Shown here one piece after another: positions 6,632-32,242 of a stretch of DNA of 33,680 nt. Source of the stretch: a virus; the IMG/VR virus record IMGVR_UViG_3300050030_000129, positions 1 through 33,680 of that record. One strand, written 5' to 3'. Positions within the stretch are counted from its first letter, which is position 1; every line of letters begins with the position of its first letter. The notes below the pieces were generated by a model that worked only from the letters and a program-made list of their open reading frames with translations, did no database searches and was not told the DNA's origin. The position numbers were made by a program, and so were the translations under genes.

Positions 6632-7969
6632 TTATAGTCTTATCCTTGGATTGCTGTCTTCGTTTCCGAACCTTAGACGACTAGGTGCGAGGGACACCTG
6701 TCTTGGCGGCCCACCAGTCGCCGCTGTAAATGTCACTTCAAGATATGGCCTCCATGCGGCGTTAGAATTGTCTTGTGAAGCGATATGGATATAGGCCGAT
6801 GAAGCAGGACTCGCATACCACACCGCGTCAATCGCCACATTTGTCCAACCTGACTTGTTGATCTGAGTTAGACTGCCAGCACCGAGAGTAAGAAACTTTG
6901 CGCCAGCATTTATGTTTATGGGGGTCGCTTTCCAACCAAATGCTGTATACACACCGTTCGTCTTGATTGTATTCAAGTCTGCGCCCTCAATCGTCGAACC
7001 GGCATCGCCATCGCAGAAATAGATGTTCAGATAATCAATGTAGCTTGAGTCACTATCGGCCGCGGTAACCCAAAAGTACAATTTGCACTTACTTATCGTC
7101 GAGCCAGCCCCAATCGCTGAGGTGTCGAAATAGAGGCACATATTGAACTCATACTGATTGTCAATACTCTGGGAAGATTCCGACCCAACCACATTGGTCT
7201 GTCCCGCTTTGTCGTTTAGGGTTGTCCCGTAGATGTCTCCGTCTTCCGTACTTCCATTGATAATCGTTGTCCCGTGAGCGGCGAATGTCCAACCCGTATT
7301 ACCTTCGATGTCGTATGAATCAGCGTCAGCGTTGAATGTCCCTCCGCTGGCGTGACAGTTTCTGATGATAGCACTGGCCACCGCCACGTTTGCGGTGCTG
7401 ACAAGAGTGAATATCTTTGTCCCTGATGACGAGCCGATTATACATCCCGTTCCCAAGACCAACGCTCCGAGAGTAAAGGATTCGTCGATTATCGAAGATA
7501 CACCAACAAAACTATTATTTCCATACGTCAGCGTTCCGGAAATGTTGACCGTTTCTCCAATAATTACGGAATTGTTCCCCAGGGTAACATTTGTCGCCGT
7601 CACGCTTGAGCCGACAATGTCAAAACCCACACTTTTTCTGACAGCGGAACTCCCTGTGATTGTTGTTGCGATGATGGTTTTTATGTCGAGGTAACAAGCG
7701 GTAGACGAACCTAAGTCGATCGTCGTGGCGGTGAAGGAATAGTTGGTACCAACCCCCTCAATGAAACAATCGCCCGTCGTTCGGTTATTCTGAAATGCGG
7801 CAACGCTGGCGTTCACGTCCAGAGTAACAAAGGGGAGGCCAGAATTGTCAAAGATCGCCGTATCTAAAACCCCAGGCATAGTCGCACCACCAGCCCCACC
7901 CGATGTCGTAGACCAGTGCGCAGTGTCTGACCAATTTCCACCATTACCGATTCTGTAGCGATTAGCCAT
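6632..7969 (-). CDS. tail fibre/spike protein with beta-helix and DNRLRE-like domain
   Basis: The 445-aa protein starts MANRYRIGNGGNWSDTAHWS, an opening common to phage adhesins. Residues about 40-235 are a run of short beta strands rich in T, V, S and N (for example ATNVTLGNNSVIIGETVNISGT), suggesting a right-handed beta-helix. The segment ends with DIEGNTGWTF. Residues about 240-420 resemble a DNRLRE/galactose-binding jelly-roll (MCLYFDTSAIGAGSTISKCKLYF ... WRPYLEVTF). A basic tail follows. It is probably a receptor-binding fibre. The start at 7969 is set by GGAGGAAAG before the ATG and overlaps the end of the nucleotidyltransferase gene by 8 nt. Confidence 0.75.
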   Translation of the reverse strand: MANRYRIGNGGNWSDTAHWSTTSGGAGGATMPGVLDTAIFDNSGLPFVTLDVNASVAAFQNNRTTGDCFIEGVGTNYSFTATTIDLGSSTACYLDIKTIIATTITGSSAVRKSVGFDIVGSSVTATNVTLGNNSVIIGETVNISGTLTYGNNSFVGVSSIIDESFTLGALVLGTGCIIGSSSGTKIFTLVSTANVAVASAIIRNCHASGGTFNADADSYDIEGNTGWTFAAHGTTIINGSTEDGDIYGTTLNDKAGQTNVVGSESSQSIDNQYEFNMCLYFDTSAIGAGSTISKCKLYFWVTAADSDSSYIDYLNIYFCDGDAGSTIEGADLNTIKTNGVYTAFGWKATPININAGAKFLTLGAGSLTQINKSGWTNVAIDAVWYASPASSAYIHIASQDNSNAAWRPYLEVTFTAATGGPPRQVSLAPSRLRFGNEDSNPRIRL

Positions 7970-8606
7970 CTTTCCTCCAGTGCAATAAATTGCCGTCTCT
8001 GTCCCAATAGGCACTCTCGTAAAAAGGTGGAATTATTCTGCCGAATCTGTCCGTACTCTCTCTGGAATACACCTCGTATTTACCTGTGTGAGGATCGTAC
8101 TTACGATGATAGGAGGACAGTCTAACCGCCGACCGATTGTAGAGCTTCCTGTCTCGCAAGGAATAGCACTCGTTGTATTCTTTGTTATTTGAATGTGAAA
8201 AGCACAGTTCAATCGCTATCTTCATCCTGTGCGACAATTCCGCGACTCGTTGCTTCCACCAGATATAGTCCGTGTTGATAATCGTTTGTAGCTTATCCTG
8301 TTGCGCCCTATTCCCTGTAGACAGTTGGATATCCAAGTCTGACCACCACGTTTGATTTCCAAAAGCATCCGAACCGCAGATTTCATAATCCCTGATCAGT
8401 TCGGCAAGATGCTGGCCATAGTGTTCCTCGGCTACTCGAATAAACTCATCAATAGCGTCGCTCAAAGTGCGGTGTTGTTCGTCGGTCATGTTCTCGATAA
8501 GACCGCGCGGCCATTCCCAGAATGTCCCACGCTTCCCCATCCAGCCATTCGGATTGTCCATCGCTGGATGTGGTTGTTCTCGTTCTGTTAGGCGAACTTC
8601 TATCAT
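7962..8606 (-). CDS. nucleotidyltransferase-like (Pol beta superfamily) protein
   Basis: From the ATG at 8606 the protein is 214 aa. Residues 78-92 read GSDAFGNQTWWSDLD, matching the Pol beta/MNT signature GS followed about 10 residues later by (S/D)DxD; D90 and D92 would bind metal, and E133 in KIAIELCF is a candidate third acid. The N-terminal 70 residues are helical and polar, and the last 50 residues carry YD and RD turns. It may transfer a nucleotide to a small molecule, protein or RNA. It is sandwiched between two tail genes, overlapping the upstream one by ATGA and the fibre gene by 8 nt, so it is strictly co-expressed with virion proteins. The third acid and activity are uncertain. 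Confidence 0.5.
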   Translation of the reverse strand: MIEVRLTEREQPHPAMDNPNGWMGKRGTFWEWPRGLIENMTDEQHRTLSDAIDEFIRVAEEHYGQHLAELIRDYEICGSDAFGNQTWWSDLDIQLSTGNRAQQDKLQTIINTDYIWWKQRVAELSHRMKIAIELCFSHSNNKEYNECYSLRDRKLYNRSAVRLSSYHRKYDPHTGKYEVYSRESTDRFGRIIPPFYESAYWDRDGNLLHWRKDG

Positions 8607-10123
8607 ATCGCCGTAGTTGTGTAATTCAATATCTTGCCAGCCGAAGCGCAAAAGAAGAACGGGGAATTGTTGGCCGCACACATCATCGTCACTGTTCCAC
8701 CGGCCTTTGCCAAAAGAATTCCACCTGAAGTGAGGGTGGCAAATCCCCAGTACATATCCGTATCTGAATTATTGCAGTAAGTAACAAGAAAGGCGACGTT
8801 CGGCTCAGTGATTTGATAAGCGGTAGTGGCACTTGTCAGAGTAAGAGTTCCAGACACATTGGTAGCCAATGGAAGAGCCGTCTGTTGCACCGCAAATGTT
8901 CCTGCATTCGTCACTGCTCTCGAAGCGGGCGTCTGCTCCATGTAGGAAATCTGTTTCAAGACCTGCATCGCCGTGATTGCCGTTGTATCTGTGGCAGTGG
9001 ACTTAGCATCAGCCTTTGCTCCGAGCGTGACGATTGCGCCATCGGCGACTGAACCAGATGCTAAAGCTCCCGACGCAATTCCACCCGAAGCGACATTGAC
9101 CTTTACGGCGGTACCATTAGCGGCGTGGTTTGCCAAAGACACCTGAAGCGGATTACCTGCCGCTACAGCCGCGCCGCCTTGATACGCCTCGGCTTGTGCT
9201 TTGAGGTTAGTGGCCGTACCCTGTTGAACCGTGACCGTTCCAGTAATTGCTGGCATGAAGGACACCCGAACGGAATCGAGATTGCCTGTTTTCTCCCAGA
9301 CATGCAGGTATAGACTGAAGCCCGTTTCGGGCGCGCCTGGTGTGACTCGGATGTATCTTGTGGTCACGGGCGCATAGCACCCCATGTAGGTCTCAAACGA
9401 TGAGGTGGGCGCTGGGCCGCCATCCGAATAGGCGTTCAGGGCAATCCAATATATCCCATCATCAGAACCCTCAAGCGAATAGTAATCTGGGTCGCCTGGG
9501 CCATTCGCGATGATTGAAAACCAGCGATAACCCTTCAAATCAAGCGCACCGAATACTGGGGTCGTTGAAGCGATGGCAATAGTCTCTTTCTGAATGATGT
9601 CATTCTTAATCACTGTGACGTTGTGTCCGTCAGCAAGTTGCAGGGCTGAGGTGGCGGCACCGGATGGCAACGGCAGGGTAGCAACGGATATGGGCTGTAG
9701 TGCCTGCCAGAATGTGCCGGTGACGGGAACGGTGGCCAGTGCGGAAACGATATCGGCCAGTGTCTTGGCGCCAGCCCCAGTACCAGCCAGTGCATCCCGA
9801 AGGGCAGTCATGGCTAGGTCGAGGTTGTCCGTCTTGCCTTTGATCGAGGCGAGGTTTCCGTCTTCCTTCGCAGGGTTGATCGGTGTGTCGGCGGTGTCCT
9901 TCAGACCAACCGGATCAACCCCGGTTCCACCGCCGGGGGTAATTTCGCCAATGGCAGTAATGATGTCGTCCTGCTTCTCCTCTGTTGCCGGATTGATCGT
10001 GTCCTCAGCGACGTTCTTGAGGCCTACGGGGTCAACACCAGTGCCGCCCACTCCGCCTATGGTTCGGAGGGCGTGGTCGTCCGGGTCGTGTACGTCGTTC
10101 AGGATGTCGGTCTGGGAGGCCAT
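8603..10123 (-). CDS. large beta-rich tail/virion surface protein
   Basis: The 506-aa protein contains two near-identical N-terminal blocks, GGTGVDPVGLKNVAEDTINP and GGTGVDPVGLKDTADTPINP (from about residues 26 and 66), then helical segments (DNLDLAMTALRDALAG). A discoidin-like domain at about residues 190-285 has YRWFSIIANGPG, YYSLEGSDDGIYW and TRYIRVTPGAP. A long Ala/Gly/Thr/Val-rich beta region follows. This is typical of a modular tail or baseplate adhesin. The start follows the stop of the 1076-aa gene closely (TAGCCCATG). The gene ends in an ATGA overlap with the nucleotidyltransferase-like gene. Confidence 0.7.
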   Translation of the reverse strand: MASQTDILNDVHDPDDHALRTIGGVGGTGVDPVGLKNVAEDTINPATEEKQDDIITAIGEITPGGGTGVDPVGLKDTADTPINPAKEDGNLASIKGKTDNLDLAMTALRDALAGTGAGAKTLADIVSALATVPVTGTFWQALQPISVATLPLPSGAATSALQLADGHNVTVIKNDIIQKETIAIASTTPVFGALDLKGYRWFSIIANGPGDPDYYSLEGSDDGIYWIALNAYSDGGPAPTSSFETYMGCYAPVTTRYIRVTPGAPETGFSLYLHVWEKTGNLDSVRVSFMPAITGTVTVQQGTATNLKAQAEAYQGGAAVAAGNPLQVSLANHAANGTAVKVNVASGGIASGALASGSVADGAIVTLGAKADAKSTATDTTAITAMQVLKQISYMEQTPASRAVTNAGTFAVQQTALPLATNVSGTLTLTSATTAYQITEPNVAFLVTYCNNSDTDMYWGFATLTSGGILLAKAGGTVTMMCAANNSPFFFCASAGKILNYTTTAI

Positions 10124-18054: not shown

Positions 18055-18804
18055 TTACGACCCTTTCGTTTCCTCCGGTGGTAAGACCTCCATGCCGGTC
18101 TTCTTGACCAGCTCCTCCTGGTAGAACATGTAATCCTGCTCGCCGAACATTTGGGTACCCTTGTGGAGGATGGAGAGGCCGGTGTCGCAGTAGACCTTCA
18201 GACCCGCTTCCTTCACCCGCCAACAGAAGCTCGTGTCCTCCGGCAGGTCGCCGCCACTGGGGAGCGGGATGATCTGGAACATGCCGACAGGGCCGAACTT
18301 GGCTCTAACCGCCTCCAAGGCTCTCCGTGAGATCAGCGTGAAGGCCATGCCGATGGTGTCCACTTCCGTCACCGCGTTCTCAGGGTAGGTCAGCCTGGTC
18401 GCCACTCCCTTGACGCTGCCGTCGTCATTCTTGACGATCGAGCCGATGGTCGGCAGGAACGGCGGCTGGCGCATGGTGCAGAGTGCTCCCACCACGTCTT
18501 GTCCGGTGGCAATCAGCCGATCCATGCCGTCGTGCGGGAACTTCATGTCACCGTCGATGAAGAGCATGTAGTCGAAGTCGTCTTTCAGAGCCTTCTCAGC
18601 CATGGACGACCGCGCCCGATAGATGAGCGAGGAAGTCTTGAACATGACCTGATAGCTCTGCTTGGTGGTCATCATCAGGTTCAAGAGTGAGGTGACGGTT
18701 TCTACCTCCGGCTTGTCGTAAACCGGAATACAGATCAGCACCTTCTTCGACTCTCCGATGATGGGCGTCTTGACTCCCTTGATCTTCGAGAATGGGATTC
18801 CCAT
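18055..18804 (-). CDS. GT-A fold glycosyltransferase within the head operon
   Basis: The 249-aa protein has KVLICIPVYDKPEVETVTSL (residues 21-40) typical of a nucleotide-sugar binding strand, FIDGDM with the metal-binding DxD at 84-86, GMAFTLISRRALEAV, and the late motif EDTSFCWRVKEAGLKVYCDTGL. Together these describe a GT-A glycosyltransferase of the family 2 type. It would transfer sugar to a phage protein or to a host surface sugar; the acceptor is unknown. It lies between the small head protein and the adaptor, and its stop touches the adaptor GTG. GGAGG is present but only two bases from the ATG; TAACCACGGAGGAC fills the 14 bases before the start and is not part of an upstream stop. Confidence 0.8.
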   Translation of the reverse strand: MGIPFSKIKGVKTPIIGESKKVLICIPVYDKPEVETVTSLLNLMMTTKQSYQVMFKTSSLIYRARSSMAEKALKDDFDYMLFIDGDMKFPHDGMDRLIATGQDVVGALCTMRQPPFLPTIGSIVKNDDGSVKGVATRLTYPENAVTEVDTIGMAFTLISRRALEAVRAKFGPVGMFQIIPLPSGGDLPEDTSFCWRVKEAGLKVYCDTGLSILHKGTQMFGEQDYMFYQEELVKKTGMEVLPPEETKGS

Positions 18805-22184: not shown

Positions 22185-22508
22185 TTAGCGATACGTTACG
22201 GTAATATCGGGAGCGTTCGTTCCGTCTATACCGACGGCCAGGCCGGTGGTAAAGGCAAGGTCGTAGAGTCGGCGTCCGAGGGAACCGAGGCCGGTATTAA
22301 TAGTAGCGATGATAGCGCCGTCGTCCGCATCAGTGTTGTTATAGAGCACTACCGTTGATCCTGTGCCTATCGTGTTGACAACTAGAGAGTGTAGCAGACC
22401 CGGGCCTTCCTTGATGGTAAAGAGTTCCTTGGCCGCCATATTCTTGTAGGTAAATGCGCTTTCCGCTCGCAATACGTTATTGTCGAAATCAGCGCCGGGA
22501 TTAGTCAT
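22185..22508 (-). CDS. possible head decoration protein, copy 2
   Basis: The 107-aa beta-rich protein starts MTNPGADFDNNVLR. It aligns along its whole length with the neighbouring 105-aa protein: PGADFDNNV near the start, (F/S)YKNxA, GxLHS(L/I)xVN, ATIN, LYDxAFTTGL and (I/A)DITxTYR at the end. This is a tandem duplication that has since diverged. Small beta proteins in this position next to a portal are often head decoration or fibre-base proteins; that role is inferred. Its ATG lies three bases after the stop of copy 1 (TAAGCGATG), so the two copies are translated together. Confidence 0.6.
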   Translation of the reverse strand: MTNPGADFDNNVLRAESAFTYKNMAAKELFTIKEGPGLLHSLVVNTIGTGSTVVLYNNTDADDGAIIATINTGLGSLGRRLYDLAFTTGLAVGIDGTNAPDITVTYR

Positions 22509-22511
22509 CGC

Positions 22512-22829
22512 TTAGCGGTAGGTTATAGTAATATCAGCCGCCCCGGTAGCAATGTCGATAGTTAGACCAGTGGTGAACGCGCAGTCATAGAGGTAGGAGG
22601 TCAGCGTAGAGACGGCATTGATTGTCGCAATCTTCGTAGTGGCTGCGGAAGTATTATCGTAGACAGTGACGACCGCGCCAGTAGCACCTTTGTTGACGGT
22701 AATGGAATGCAATACACCAGCCCCGCTTTTGAGGGTGGTCGCGGCGACATCAGCTAGATTCTTGTAAGAGAAGCGCTGTTCTACCCGCTGAACGTTGTTG
22801 TCGAAATCTGCTCCTGGAGTCGTTGGCAT
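22512..22829 (-). CDS. possible head decoration protein, copy 1
   Basis: The 105-aa beta-rich protein MPTTPGADFDNNVQRVEQ is the paralogue of the 107-aa protein that follows it. Shared features are PGADFDNNV, SYKNLA, GVLHSITVN, ATINA, LYDCAFTTGL and ADITITYR. The middle loops differ most (TGAVVTVYDNTSAATTK here), as expected if the core is kept and the exposed surface changes. The gene starts six nt after the portal stop (TAAACCACCATG) without an SD. Heteromer formation or functional specialisation between the copies is possible. Confidence 0.6.
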   Translation of the reverse strand: MPTTPGADFDNNVQRVEQRFSYKNLADVAATTLKSGAGVLHSITVNKGATGAVVTVYDNTSAATTKIATINAVSTLTSYLYDCAFTTGLTIDIATGAADITITYR

Positions 22830-26476: not shown

Positions 26477-26867
26477 CAATCAGATCATCGAAGCTGTGGT
26501 GCGCCTCGATCTTCTTCGCCGCTTCCAGTCCCTTGATCTTGGTGGCACTGTCGAAGAACTTGTGGCGAGTCGAATGGTCGGGCACGTCCATGAAGTCCAT
26601 GGTCTTGCCGGTAGCATCCGTTCCGACCACTGCTCGGTTAGCCTTCAGCCCCTCATCCATGACCTTCGCCAGCCGGTCATCCGTGATGCCAGCTTTGTCC
26701 ATCGCAGCTAGAAAAGCCTCACGAACATTAGGTTTCGCAAGTGTCTGCGATGCCTGACTTTCGGCTGTTTTCGGGCTGAAGCCTGCCTCGATCCCAGCCT
26801 CTTTGCGCTTCTTTCCCTCAACGGTGAGCTTGATGAGCTTGCGCTGTCTGATGTTTAGATCAGCCAT
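26430..26867 (-). CDS. terminase small subunit (putative)
   Basis: From the ATG at 26867 the protein is 145 aa. The first 55 residues form a helix-turn-helix (NIRQRKLIKLTVEGKKRKEAGIEAGFSPKTAESQASQTLAKPNVREAF), the usual DNA-recognition part of small terminases. An oligomerisation region (RLAKVMDEGLKANRA ... RHKFFDSATKIKGLEAAKKIE) and an acidic tail (DDLIDDLDDGE) follow. It would recognise packaging DNA. The start overlaps the end of the glycosyltransferase gene (ATGGCTGA). The 3' end overlaps the large-subunit start. Confidence 0.78.
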   Translation of the reverse strand: MADLNIRQRKLIKLTVEGKKRKEAGIEAGFSPKTAESQASQTLAKPNVREAFLAAMDKAGITDDRLAKVMDEGLKANRAVVGTDATGKTMDFMDVPDHSTRHKFFDSATKIKGLEAAKKIEAHHSFDDLIDDLDDGESPADTEED

Positions 26868-27606
26868 CGTCGAGCGCCCCCCATTCCCTGTCCTTGTTAC
26901 GGACATGGTCGATGTATCCCTGCGCCCACTGGGCCGTCTTCATGTTGTAGAGCGATGACATTTCCGACGTTCCCTCAGTTAGTCGGATGTGATCTTGGTG
27001 CAATCCGAAGATGTCGTGATGCCAGAACGGCGTCAGCCCAAGCCCCTTGGTCAGCCGGTCGAACAGGTCGGTGTCGTCATCGCCGTACATCGTGAAATCC
27101 TCATCCATTCCCCGGATGGCCTGAATGTGCTCGGTACGGTAGGCGGCAAGCATTGGGATAGGACGCTGTGCTGTCGGCCCGCAGTACTCGCAACCCATTT
27201 GTCCGTCCTTCCAGTTGACGACGCGAGCAAAGGCGAACTGGTCGGGATGCTCCTTGAGTACGGCCACGAACTGCCGGATGCAGTCGGTCTGATGGATGAT
27301 CTCAGCGGACTGCATGATGCAATACTCGCCCGTCGCACGTCTGAAGCCGACGTTCATCGGACGGCTTGGGTTAGTCCAGCCTTCCCGTCCCTTGGCGATG
27401 CGGTTGAAGATGATCTGCGGGAACTCATCCTTGATCTTCTCGGTGCCGTCGGTCGAGCCGTCGTCCGTCACGAATACTTCAAGGTTCGGGTACTGCTGGC
27501 GATAGATGGACTTCAAAGATTCCCTAAGCAAGGGCAGGCGGTTGAACGTGGAGATGACGATCGAAACCCTAGGCTCCGTTGATTGTGACGGTGAGTGTTT
27601 TGCCAT
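26860..27606 (-). CDS. family 2 glycosyltransferase next to terminase
   Basis: The 248-aa protein has VSIVISTFNRLPLLRESLKSI and VTDDGSTDGT (residues 14-55), the nucleotide-sugar binding part of GT2 enzymes, and a later segment GMDEDFTMYGDDDTDLFDRL with the catalytic acid region. The usual DxD metal site is replaced by QSAE (residues 99-102), a variant also found in a GT2 subgroup with QN(P/A)E-type motifs; metal use may therefore differ. The acceptor is unknown; candidates are virion proteins or phage DNA. The gene overlaps the upstream 58-aa gene by 38 nt and the small terminase by 8 nt. It is the second glycosyltransferase in the window and is not close in sequence to the first. Confidence 0.82.
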   Translation of the reverse strand: MAKHSPSQSTEPRVSIVISTFNRLPLLRESLKSIYRQQYPNLEVFVTDDGSTDGTEKIKDEFPQIIFNRIAKGREGWTNPSRPMNVGFRRATGEYCIMQSAEIIHQTDCIRQFVAVLKEHPDQFAFARVVNWKDGQMGCEYCGPTAQRPIPMLAAYRTEHIQAIRGMDEDFTMYGDDDTDLFDRLTKGLGLTPFWHHDIFGLHQDHIRLTEGTSEMSSLYNMKTAQWAQGYIDHVRNKDREWGALDDG

Positions 27607-28057: not shown

Positions 28058-28807
28058 CTAGCTGAGGATCACCTCGCGGAACAGTGCGCTCAAGGCGAGC
28101 GTACTGTCCATTTGAGCCCGGGGTGATCTACTTTTCGTCACCTCAGTGAATGCGTTGTAGAGGGACCACACGACCCGTGGCGCGAATTCGGGATACTTCG
28201 GCCGGTCGTACGCTTCGATTACCCGGGGCAATGACGAAGCGGGCAGGATATCCCTGCGGACGGATTCGACCAGCAAGTGATCGGCGGCCGCCACGTCCAG
28301 CGCCAATGTCTTCATCCGTCGGATCTCGTCGGCATGACGAGAGTTGAGCCCCGCCACTGACGAGAGCATCCGGTAGATCATCTCCGGCAGATCCCGGAAG
28401 ACGTGAAGGGTGTGCTTGCGGGACACCTCCGCCTCCCCGCTGAACGCGAGGTTATCGCAGCAGAAGACTCGGCTGCCGGCGCAGAGATTGACGCTGAAGC
28501 TCTTGTCGTAGCTGTTGCGCAACCCGATGGCCACGCAGTACTCGCCGTCCCCCGATGCCGCCTGACAGGACAGGACACCGAACAGCTGGGCGCCGTCGCG
28601 GGCCAAGGCGTAGGACTCGTCCATGACCTGAAGACCGAACCTAGGTAGGTGCAGCCGCACCTCTTCCACCAGTCGGGGGTGAGGCACGGGAATATAACTC
28701 CCGTCCTCGATGGGAACCGGAACCGCCCGTATGTCGGCTTCGGTCGCTATCCACCCGCCCCTGTGGGCAATGAGCTGCCCCTGGGCGGCCTCGTTCCATT
28801 CATTCAT
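28058..28807 (-). CDS. DUF932-like protein
   Basis: The 249-aa protein has the central motif GLRNSYDKSFSVNLCAGSRVFCCDNLAFSGE followed by RKHT. This matches DUF932 proteins of phages and plasmids, in which SxDxS(M/F/)xx(G/A)xRVxC(x)N is the best conserved region. The C-terminal half is helical and ends in the ordered RAQMDSTLALSALFREVIL. The biochemical function of the family is not established; it is a marker of plasmids, phages and integrative elements. GGAGGG precedes the ATG, a conventional SD. It is the last gene of a transcript that includes the RadC-like gene. Confidence 0.72.
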   Translation of the reverse strand: MNEWNEAAQGQLIAHRGGWIATEADIRAVPVPIEDGSYIPVPHPRLVEEVRLHLPRFGLQVMDESYALARDGAQLFGVLSCQAASGDGEYCVAIGLRNSYDKSFSVNLCAGSRVFCCDNLAFSGEAEVSRKHTLHVFRDLPEMIYRMLSSVAGLNSRHADEIRRMKTLALDVAAADHLLVESVRRDILPASSLPRVIEAYDRPKYPEFAPRVVWSLYNAFTEVTKSRSPRAQMDSTLALSALFREVILS

Positions 28808-28821
28808 CTTCCCTCCTGAGG

Positions 28822-29247
28822 CTAGAGGATTCCGGCCTCTCTGAAGCTGAAATGACTCTTGCCTCCGATGATGACGTGATCCAGTACTTCGATTCCGACG
28901 GTCTCGCCGACTCGCGCCAGCCGTTGCGTCATCTCCACATCGTCCTCGGACGGTGTAGGTTCACCCGATGGATGGTTGTGGACGAGCAGGACCGAAGCGG
29001 CCGCGTGCCGGATAGCCTCTCTGAACACCTCCCTCGGATGAACGATGCTGGAGTTCAGGCTTCCGATTGACAGGACAGTCAGCCGGTAGACCATGTGGCG
29101 AGTGTTGAGAAGCGCGACGATGAAATACTCGCGCATCTCCTTGCCCACCGCGTCCCGAACGACCGGCACCAGGTCTTGAGGCGTGCGGATCGGCCCCGGT
29201 CTGGTTCGCAGAGTCAGACTCGCATGCTCGGTGATGTAGAGCTTCAC
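28822..29247 (-). CDS. radC: RadC-like JAB/MPN-domain protein
   Basis: The 141-aa protein has the JAMM pattern: E40 in MREYFIVALLNTR, then HNHPSGEPTPSEDD (H90, H92, D103), the metal site of RadC/JAB proteases. It lacks the N-terminal UPF0758 helix-hairpin-helix half of chromosomal RadC and corresponds to the plasmid and phage single-domain type. The function of these is not settled; links with recombination and antirestriction genes are common. A GTG start is chosen because it has GGAGG four bases upstream and overlaps the stop of the preceding gene (GTGA). Confidence 0.85.
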   Translation of the reverse strand: MKLYITEHASLTLRTRPGPIRTPQDLVPVVRDAVGKEMREYFIVALLNTRHMVYRLTVLSIGSLNSSIVHPREVFREAIRHAAASVLLVHNHPSGEPTPSEDDVEMTQRLARVGETVGIEVLDHVIIGGKSHFSFREAGIL

Positions 29248-30381: not shown

Positions 30382-30409
30382 ATGATACGCCGTTATACAA
30401 AACTGTCAA
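30382..30409 (-). promoter_or_regulatory. sigma70 promoter predicting a leaderless mRNA
   Basis: TTGACA (30409-30404) is a perfect -35. A 16-bp spacer is followed by TATCAT (30387-30382), which matches the -10 at five of six positions. The -35 overlaps the stop codon of the ATPase gene (30406-30408). The ATG begins at 30375, only six bases after the -10. Confidence 0.75.
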
Positions 30410-31890
30410 GCCCTGCGCCTCGGTGCCCTCTTCACCTTCACGTCTTCAATCTCGGCCTCTTTACGCTCCTGTTCCATCTCAGCGATGTGCTCCCTGCGGC
30501 GTTTGTAGGCGTCTCGGCAGGACTCTATCGACACCAGATTGATCCGCGCGTTCGTTTCCATGAAGGCCGCGATGTGCTCGGCTGGCACTCTCGGTGGTGG
30601 AGTGCTAAGCGGCGTCCTCAGCCAGTACGTCTTACCTTCGTCGGCGTAACAGGCCACGGCCTCCCCGACGCGCTGACTCTTGATCTGGTTCGCGTAGTGC
30701 GCCAGCTCCTCCCCTACCGACCAGTACGACGGCTCCCCTGTCGGGACAGGCACAATTCCCCACAAGCGTTCCGCCTTCTGGCGCTTGATGCGGTCGCCCC
30801 TGAGCGGGAACAGTTGCCGCGCCATTTTCTCGGCGTCTTCGTAGTCGCCCAGGCTGAACGCGATCCGCGTGCCGCAGTTGCCCATGATGGCCGACAGCAA
30901 TTTCCAGTCGATCTGGGCCCTGTTCTGGTGGAACACACAGAGGCCCAGCCCTCGCTTCTGCCGGCGGGACATGATGCGGTGAACGCAATCCGACGGGTAC
31001 TCCTGAAACTCGTCGAGGAATGTGATGTAGGTGCTGGCGCCTTCCTGCCGCTTGGCCGAATCCAGCTCGATGCGTGCCAGGAGCAGCGTCGCCAGCAGGG
31101 GCAGTTGGTCGCCGAGCCTGTCCTCCTCCAGCCGAATCAGCACGGTCTTCCCGTCGTCCATGAGCTTGGAGAAGTCCACGCACGTCTCTGTGGAAAACAT
31201 GGGGGCAAGGTAGGGGCTGCTGAGGATTTCGCTGACCTTGTTGCGAGCGCTCTCGATCCATTCCCGAAACCGCGTCTTGGCGAGCTGGGCGCGGTACACC
31301 GTCCAGAACTTCAGGGCCGGTTGCTTGGAATGGAAGGCCAACGTCTCGGCGAACCGCGGATCGAGAAACAAGTCGTCGAACTCCTGCACACTGAGGTGCT
31401 GCTCACCGAGCACGAGAAAGGCTGATCTGAAAACGTCCTCCATCCTTGCGCCCAAGGCGAACTGCTCCGGCCAGACGCGCTTGAGGGCGGCGATGAAGTA
31501 CTGGGCGGTCTCGAAGAGGCTGTAGGAGGCGTCAGGAGCTAACCAGTTGAAGGGGATGACGCCTGAGTCGTCCGTAGGGCAGAACACCGCGTAGCGGCTA
31601 CAGGCGGGCTCGTAGCGCCGACCTAGCGGCACCTTCGGGTATTTCCGGTCGGCATCGGCCACGATGAGCCGGATCAAGTGGTCTTGGGTGCTGCCTTCGA
31701 GGTCGAGGGAACAGAACGGTACTCCGAGCGCGAGGCATTGGCTCATCAGATTCTTGGCTAGGTTGGTCTTACCGGAACGGCTGGAGCCTTGGCAGTAGAC
31801 GCCGCGCTGGAGCTGGCGGTCGGTGAGTGTCAGCCTTTTCTTCCGGCGTCCGTCGTACTCAACGCCCTCCCCCAGATGCAGACTTGTCAT
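30406..31890 (-). CDS. HerA/VirD4-like ATPase (conjugative coupling-type)
   Basis: The 494-aa protein has Walker A GSSRSGKT (residues 35-42), Walker B TYITFLDEFQEY with D293/E294, and the later HQNRAQIDWKLLSAIMGNCGTRIAF, the sensor region of FtsK/HerA superfamily DNA translocases. The N-terminus lacks transmembrane segments, but two multi-pass membrane proteins are encoded just upstream, so it may dock on them as VirD4/TraG-type coupling ATPases do. The C-terminal 60 residues are charged. A DNA-pumping role in transfer, packaging or segregation is possible. The start at 31890 was chosen for GAGG seven bases upstream; it lies inside the end of the upstream gene (32-nt overlap). Confidence 0.8.
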   Translation of the reverse strand: MTSLHLGEGVEYDGRRKKRLTLTDRQLQRGVYCQGSSRSGKTNLAKNLMSQCLALGVPFCSLDLEGSTQDHLIRLIVADADRKYPKVPLGRRYEPACSRYAVFCPTDDSGVIPFNWLAPDASYSLFETAQYFIAALKRVWPEQFALGARMEDVFRSAFLVLGEQHLSVQEFDDLFLDPRFAETLAFHSKQPALKFWTVYRAQLAKTRFREWIESARNKVSEILSSPYLAPMFSTETCVDFSKLMDDGKTVLIRLEEDRLGDQLPLLATLLLARIELDSAKRQEGASTYITFLDEFQEYPSDCVHRIMSRRQKRGLGLCVFHQNRAQIDWKLLSAIMGNCGTRIAFSLGDYEDAEKMARQLFPLRGDRIKRQKAERLWGIVPVPTGEPSYWSVGEELAHYANQIKSQRVGEAVACYADEGKTYWLRTPLSTPPPRVPAEHIAAFMETNARINLVSIESCRDAYKRRREHIAEMEQERKEAEIEDVKVKRAPRRRA

Positions 31891-32242
31891 CGGGCGGCCT
31901 CGGCAGTCCGGCGTAGATCCAGAGGAACGCCCAGAGGACACCGACAATCCCGGAAGCCATGCCGGCCGTTCCGTAGCAACGGGTAATCAGGACTCCTCCG
32001 GCCTTGAGAAGGGCACAAAATCCCACTATGCCGATGACCCAGCAGGGCCAGCCGCCCCTGGTCATTGGAATGACAATCAGATGCCTCCAGAGCCAGAGCC
32101 CAATCCGTCCCAGAAGCCACAACAAGTCTTGGGACAGCATGACCGCGCCGCGAACAAGCCTGCCCTTGCCGCGCAGCATGGCCAGAACGAACAGAAGAAT
32201 GAGGGATTGAGCGATAAGGTAGTGACTGGTGTTCGCTGTCAT
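31859..32242 (-). CDS. 127-aa multi-pass membrane protein
   Basis: The protein has about four hydrophobic segments: LIAQSLILLFVLAML near the N-terminus, LWLLGRIGLWLWRHLIVIP, WPCWVIGIVGFCALLKAGGVLI, and ASGIVGVLWAFLWIYAGLP, ending in a polar tail. No family is recognised. It is co-transcribed with, and overlaps, the HerA/VirD4-like ATPase gene, which suggests a membrane anchor or channel partner for it. The start has no obvious SD. It follows the preceding gene by 18 nt. Confidence 0.65.
   Translation of the reverse strand: MTANTSHYLIAQSLILLFVLAMLRGKGRLVRGAVMLSQDLLWLLGRIGLWLWRHLIVIPMTRGGWPCWVIGIVGFCALLKAGGVLITRCYGTAGMASGIVGVLWAFLWIYAGLPRPPDDKSASGGGR

Follow-up and report, generated by a model that had tools for sequence, protein, structure and literature searches.

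A predicted MNT-like nucleotidyltransferase gene paired with a conserved, virion-like partner gene in phage structural regions

One gene in the structural operon of a 33,680-base virus record from IMG/VR (the whole stretch of DNA analysed, hereafter the window) very probably encodes an MNT-like member of the Pol-beta nucleotidyltransferase (NTase) superfamily, and there is equally high confidence that it forms, with the gene that follows it, a conserved and translationally coupled pair. What is new here is this context, in which the NTase is paired with a partner gene whose product carries a distinctive domain (the EDG domain). The position of the NTase directly before a virion-like protein in all five members of the family suggests, without proving it, that these phages may attach a chemical tag to a component of their own virion. 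The features on which the argument draws are as follows.

8603-10123, minus strand: upstream fibre-like protein of 506 amino acids, with a sub-threshold F5/8C-like stretch at residues 209-272
8603-8606, minus strand: ATGA overlap between the stop of the upstream fibre-like gene and the start of the NTase gene
7962-8606, minus strand: predicted MNT-like NTase gene (P0001, 214 amino acids), with its start at 8606 and its stop ending at 7962
8331-8375, minus strand: GSX10DXD motif, G78-S79-D-A-F-G-N-Q-T-W-W-S89-D90-L91-D92
8208-8210, minus strand: E133, proposed third metal ligand, on the strand IAIELCF; Asp in four of four relatives
8139-8165, minus strand: family block YSLRDRKLY, in which Y148, S149 and K154 are invariant in the five members
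7962-7969, minus strand: 8-nt overlap between the 3' end of the NTase gene and the start of the downstream gene
6632-7969, minus strand: downstream fibre-like protein of 445 amino acids, the conserved operon partner
6632-7294, minus strand: C-terminal 'EDGDI' domain, predicted to be beta-rich, common to the partner gene in five of five contigs
6745-6743, minus strand: codon of the Tyr that is invariant in the partner domain, residue 409 of the 445-amino-acid protein

The reading frame is almost certainly a genuine gene. Almost every gene of the window lies on the minus strand, and the plus strand of 7962-8606 is full of stops. A sequence-only reading of this DNA had placed the gene correctly at these coordinates, giving no strand, and had correctly described overlaps with both neighbours: the ATG at 8606 shares four nucleotides (ATGA) with the upstream stop, and the 3' end runs eight nucleotides into the downstream gene, the ATG of which (at 7969) is preceded by GGAGGAAAG, containing a good ribosome-binding site (GGAGG). 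The surrounding structural operon is podovirus-like, with a portal of the SU10/P22 type. The same reading called the neighbours tail genes, which holds to the extent that both the 506-amino-acid protein, with repeated units at its N-terminus, and the 445-amino-acid protein are fibre-like by sequence; this is annotation by resemblance rather than proof. The GC content of the NTase gene (47%) and of its downstream partner (49%) is below the window average of 57%, and both are AT-richer than most of the surrounding genes.

Several other genes of the window and of a related locus were seen in passing. Directly after the portal gene, 22185-22508 and 22512-22829 (both minus strand) form a tandem pair of paralogues with 54% identity across 106 amino acids (blastp E 1e-33), and both products start with PGADFDNNV. 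The 513-amino-acid product of 30406-31947 (minus strand) is ATPase-like, with a match to the TraG/TraD C-terminal family PF12696 (E 9e-6), and lies near RadC (28822-29247) and DUF932 (28058-28807) genes, such that conjugation-type genes occur in a virus record. Inside the structural and packaging operon, 18055-18804 and 26860-27606 (minus strand) are glycosyltransferase-like (a sub-threshold Anp1-like match and a GT2 match of E 7e-22, respectively). In a related podovirus (L003 7427-8014; MW202801.1 28634-29221), the structural operon includes a gene with the annotation L7/L12-serine acetyltransferase, which would be a second candidate for a protein-modifying enzyme in this kind of position.

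The motif positions of the sequence-only reading, G78-S79, S89-D90-L91-D92 and E133, are correct. In its strict form, G[ST]x[AVSG]x[GT]x5[ST]D[LIVM]D, the motif arises five times per million shuffles of the window protein, and the remaining ORFs of the window lack it, as do those of the loci related to its neighbouring genes (L002-L010). The loose form, G[ST]x6-14Dx[DE], arises in 12% of shuffles, so that the signal is carried by the specific spacing.

Searches with the window protein alone returned little. There was no match in Pfam or NCBIfam and only chance matches in PHROGs, and no relative was found among 50,697 phage records and 72,556 plasmids, in IMG/VR by exact peptides, or in GTDB genomes; loci L002-L010 carried no NTase. 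Relatives, all metagenomic and none from a cultured phage, were retrieved from IMG/VR by DNA motif patterns, two stricter scans having found nothing before the patterns were relaxed. The pattern GSxAxGxxTxxSD(hyd)D(hyd) gave 107 NTase ORFs, among which L075 matched the window protein best, and a second pattern with AFG gave L131, L132 and L138. In a phmmer comparison covering about 125 viral NTases, the latter three match the window protein at E-values from 2e-19 to 4e-15, and L075 joins the family through L138 (E 2e-10). A scan of bacterial genome contigs with the family alignment found no relative. Two phage matches, one in a Mycobacterium phage (E 0.4) and one in a Streptomyces phage (E 0.8), were regarded as chance. 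The independence of the members is limited, because three of the five come from one sample series (3300037264).

Conservation of the GS and DxD residues in homologues, which the sequence-only reading had named as one of two tests of its claim, is present in all four relatives, but by construction: the relatives were retrieved with that motif, and its conservation among them is not evidence. Three of the four nevertheless match the window protein when residues 74-95 are masked (L132, 8e-10; L138, 5e-9; L131, 1.5e-4; among 15,595 ORFs). The position of E133 is occupied by Asp in every relative, lies on a predicted strand, and is outside the retrieval pattern; the YS(F/L)xxxxK block is likewise outside the search bait. 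The family also has an aromatic, RWxxxxxKW-like C-terminal segment.

Assignment to the superfamily is supported by PF01909 (NTP_transf_2), which L075 matches with 22.3 bits against a curated cut-off of 21, with L138, L131 and L132 below it at 15-18 bits. When compared with a target set of viral MNT-like NTases from which L075 was left out, the family profile gave a probability of 92.9 and a score of 50, versus at most 19 in 100 column shuffles. These two matches, and the acidic residue conserved as E133 or Asp, support the earlier assignment of the protein as an NTase. The family profile also scores 47 against RlaP-like viral NTases, with the similarity confined to the palm, and the basis for the MNT-like placement within the superfamily is therefore the size of the protein together with weak matches to MntA, to PDC-S09 and in structure. 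Against PDB sequences, the A1 profile listed DrrA, MNT, 2rff, MntA and HI0073, each weak; the DrrA match in the family-profile search covers the palm and is not significant (E 0.13).

Structure prediction is in keeping with this assignment. Folded alone, the window protein reached a pLDDT of 43, at which PDB matches are meaningless. A model of L138 from the five-sequence alignment has a mean pLDDT of 65 and a core of about 80, the core being its only confident part, and shows a helix, a strand ending in GS, a strand with DxD, a long helix and a strand with the third Asp, in the order expected. The first eight Foldseek matches of this model in the PDB are all NTases (MntA, 2rff and MNT entries; E 0.03-0.19), and in VIA-align NTases reach a Z of 5-6, tied with KH/RbfA-like folds. 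Given those E-values and that tie, the fold is supported by the sequence and only compatible with the model. In BFVD, the same model matched uncharacterised phage proteins of 300-812 amino acids (probability 1.00, E 7e-4 to 2e-3), one of them named an amidoligase; these larger proteins may hold the same domain fused to others.

The NTase is likely to be catalytically active. An alternative explanation is that the fold has been kept in a catalytically dead protein, serving as a chaperone or as a structural part of an appendage, for which the strict pairing with a virion-like protein and an aromatic C-terminal segment that could bind the partner might be cited. However, all three acidic positions are kept across members that are only about 25% identical, the third of them not selected by the search pattern, and the dN/dS of 0.15 between the L131 and L138 NTases indicates purifying selection, making a dead enzyme very unlikely.

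The arrangement of the genes is suggestive of coupling on both sides of the NTase. Its start overlaps the preceding stop in five of five contigs, as TAATG in three, TGATG in one and ATGA in the window, and the distance from its stop to the start of the partner gene is -13, -8, +3, +3 and +3 nucleotides. The setting is more variable. In L131, L132 and L138 the order is a gene for a 120-amino-acid protein, the NTase, the EDG protein, a small gene, a scaffold-like gene and a major-capsid-like gene; in L075 the NTase lies between a terminase-like gene and the EDG protein, and in the window between the 506-amino-acid fibre-like gene and the 445-amino-acid gene. No homology was found between the upstream fibre of the window and the upstream protein of L131, L132 and L138, the two sharing only a short EGSDDG-like stretch (hhalign probability 1), and a three-gene cassette is therefore claimed for L131, L132 and L138 only, and a two-gene pair for the five contigs together. 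In a comparison of L131 with L138, the three genes of the cassette show 78-85% identity (dS 0.9-1.0), versus 52% for the capsid protein (dS 1.8). The cassette is found at three different spots in the structural region, and this different placement in otherwise unlike genomes indicates that its genes move together. A literature search that reached few subscription papers turned up no account of a cassette of this kind. In a further locus, L152 (1360-1785; MW202742.1), a gene near a homologue of the L131/L132/L138 upstream protein and a pectate lyase fibre is annotated as a 'general glycosylation pathway protein'; its 141-amino-acid product looks structural and beta-rich.

A profile built from four EDG proteins recovers the C-terminal half of the 445-amino-acid gene of the window (E 4.8e-6) as its sole non-member match among 15,595 ORFs. 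The EDG(I/V) domain is encoded by the next gene in five of five family contigs, whereas it is missing from all 86 of the other viral NTase loci that have 700 nt or more of downstream sequence. In L131, L132 and L138 the EDG proteins are 190-198 amino acids long and begin with TT(A/P)EDG(H/F)(V/I). No relative of the partner domain was found among PDB sequences up to E 5, and the partner proteins have no match in Pfam or PHROG. From its operon position and the character of its sequence, which reads as beta-rich, the partner looks like a virion component. The domain has nine invariant positions, of which one is a hydroxyl residue, the Tyr at 409 in the window protein. This residue could be an acceptor, and could equally be a core residue on a buried strand. 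The EDG proteins of L131 (2605-3180), L138 (12755-13330) and L132 (1530-2126) also share a conserved arginine-rich tail, RRRGRR.

What such a pair might do can be framed by MntA, which relies on its GSX10DXD motif to adenylylate a Tyr of the neighbouring HepT (PMC7641770). By the same logic, in which the protein of the neighbouring gene is adenylylated, the NTase would be made late, alongside the structural proteins; D90, D92 and E133 would bind Mg-NTP; and a nucleoside monophosphate, most likely AMP, would be transferred onto the co-encoded appendage protein, with nucleotidylation perhaps altering the surface charge of that protein, the way it binds receptors or how well it withstands host attack. 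On this analogy, the operon partner may be the substrate of the NTase, at a confidence a little short of even. The explanation as a whole, an NTase nucleotidylating its coupled EDG-domain partner, is put forward tentatively and a shade less firmly. More speculative again is the broader proposal that the phage NTase modifies its own virion, that appendages carry AMP or another nucleotide, and that enzyme and substrate spread together as a cassette. The earlier suggestion that the fibre is the substrate remains plausible, and is strengthened by the conserved partner gene, with the substrate itself reached only by inference. That suggestion had come with a proposal to look for the gene beside fibres in other phages; in the four relatives, all from uncultured viruses, the NTase directly precedes the EDG protein.

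The conserved pairing also bears on the possibility that the NTase is cargo that nucleotidylates a host target (a protein, a tRNA or a signalling nucleotide), for instance in counter-defence or reprogramming, with the structural operon providing late expression only. Adjacency in the operon is compatible with such a role, the weak matches to PDB sequences include the protein AMPylator DrrA, NTases of other kinds are known in phages, and the cassette moves between unlike genomes and has an atypical GC content. For a host-directed enzyme, however, there would be no reason to expect one partner domain in every family contig and in none of the controls, or coupling on both sides, and this explanation is considered unlikely. 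A small-molecule or glycan NTase of the aminoglycoside/lincosamide type, acting on a cell-surface sugar, a fibre decoration or an antibiotic, is less probable again: the structural comparison lists AadA with a Z of 5.2, and the two glycosyltransferase-like genes in the window operon make virion glycans conceivable, but the AadA score is no better than that of unrelated folds and there is no family-level match to such enzymes.

Modification of the EDG partner is preferred over these alternatives, and the case is of interest given how little has been charted of the ways in which enzymes modify phage particles. A small NTase found with one constant EDG partner in unlike viruses represents a specific and cheaply testable example. 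If the proposal is true, the MntA principle, whereby an NTase modifies the protein of a neighbouring gene, would reach beyond the control of toxins into the chemistry of virions, and would matter for receptor binding and for escape from host defence.

One further explanation is that the phage carries the gene as an MNT antitoxin or as part of a defence system, of either the HEPN/MNT or the PADLOC PDC-S09 kind. GSX10DXD is present, four of the five members have weak MntA matches, and there are weak matches to PDC-S09 (E 0.0055 for the window protein and 7e-5 for the best member) that cover the shared motif region. However, no HEPN toxin adjoins the NTase in any member. None of the partner proteins contains the HEPN signature RX4-6H (RX4HXY), of which there is a single instance in an upstream protein, no HEPN Pfam match was found among the neighbours in the window or its relatives, and the NCBIfam MntA model scores 14.4 bits with L138, far below its cut-off of 60, and does not match the window protein. 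Since a HEPN partner was sought and is absent, the pair is not read as a HEPN/MNT toxin-antitoxin system, and an antitoxin or defence role of either kind is rated as highly improbable.

Comparison with known systems shows partial likenesses. The CCA-adding tRNA nucleotidyltransferases of Autographiviridae (PMC7693777), and that of SU10, are likewise nucleotidyltransferases in podovirus genomes; they are described as CCA/tRNA enzymes, the SU10 one is listed among early gene products, and enzymes of this kind have no profile match to the window family. RlaP and T4 nrdC.11 (COG3541) are also Pol-beta-superfamily NTases of phages, but the similarity is limited to the palm, neither is tied to fibre genes in the sources examined, and Pfam searches of the window and its relatives up to E 10 gave no RlaP match. 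The DrrA/SidM family is known to AMPylate proteins, and the N-terminal AMPylator domain of DrrA/SidM gives the palm match to the family profile mentioned above, with a different architecture and biology. MntA (HEPN/MNT, type VII TA, PF01909; PMC7641770) is also a small stand-alone GSX10DXD NTase beside a conserved partner gene, and is among the nearest solved structures in the Foldseek list of the L138 model. Here, in contrast, the partner is of the EDG type, predicted to be beta-rich and virion-like rather than a HEPN toxin, and the NTase of the window lies in a phage structural operon and carries extra N-terminal and aromatic C-terminal segments.
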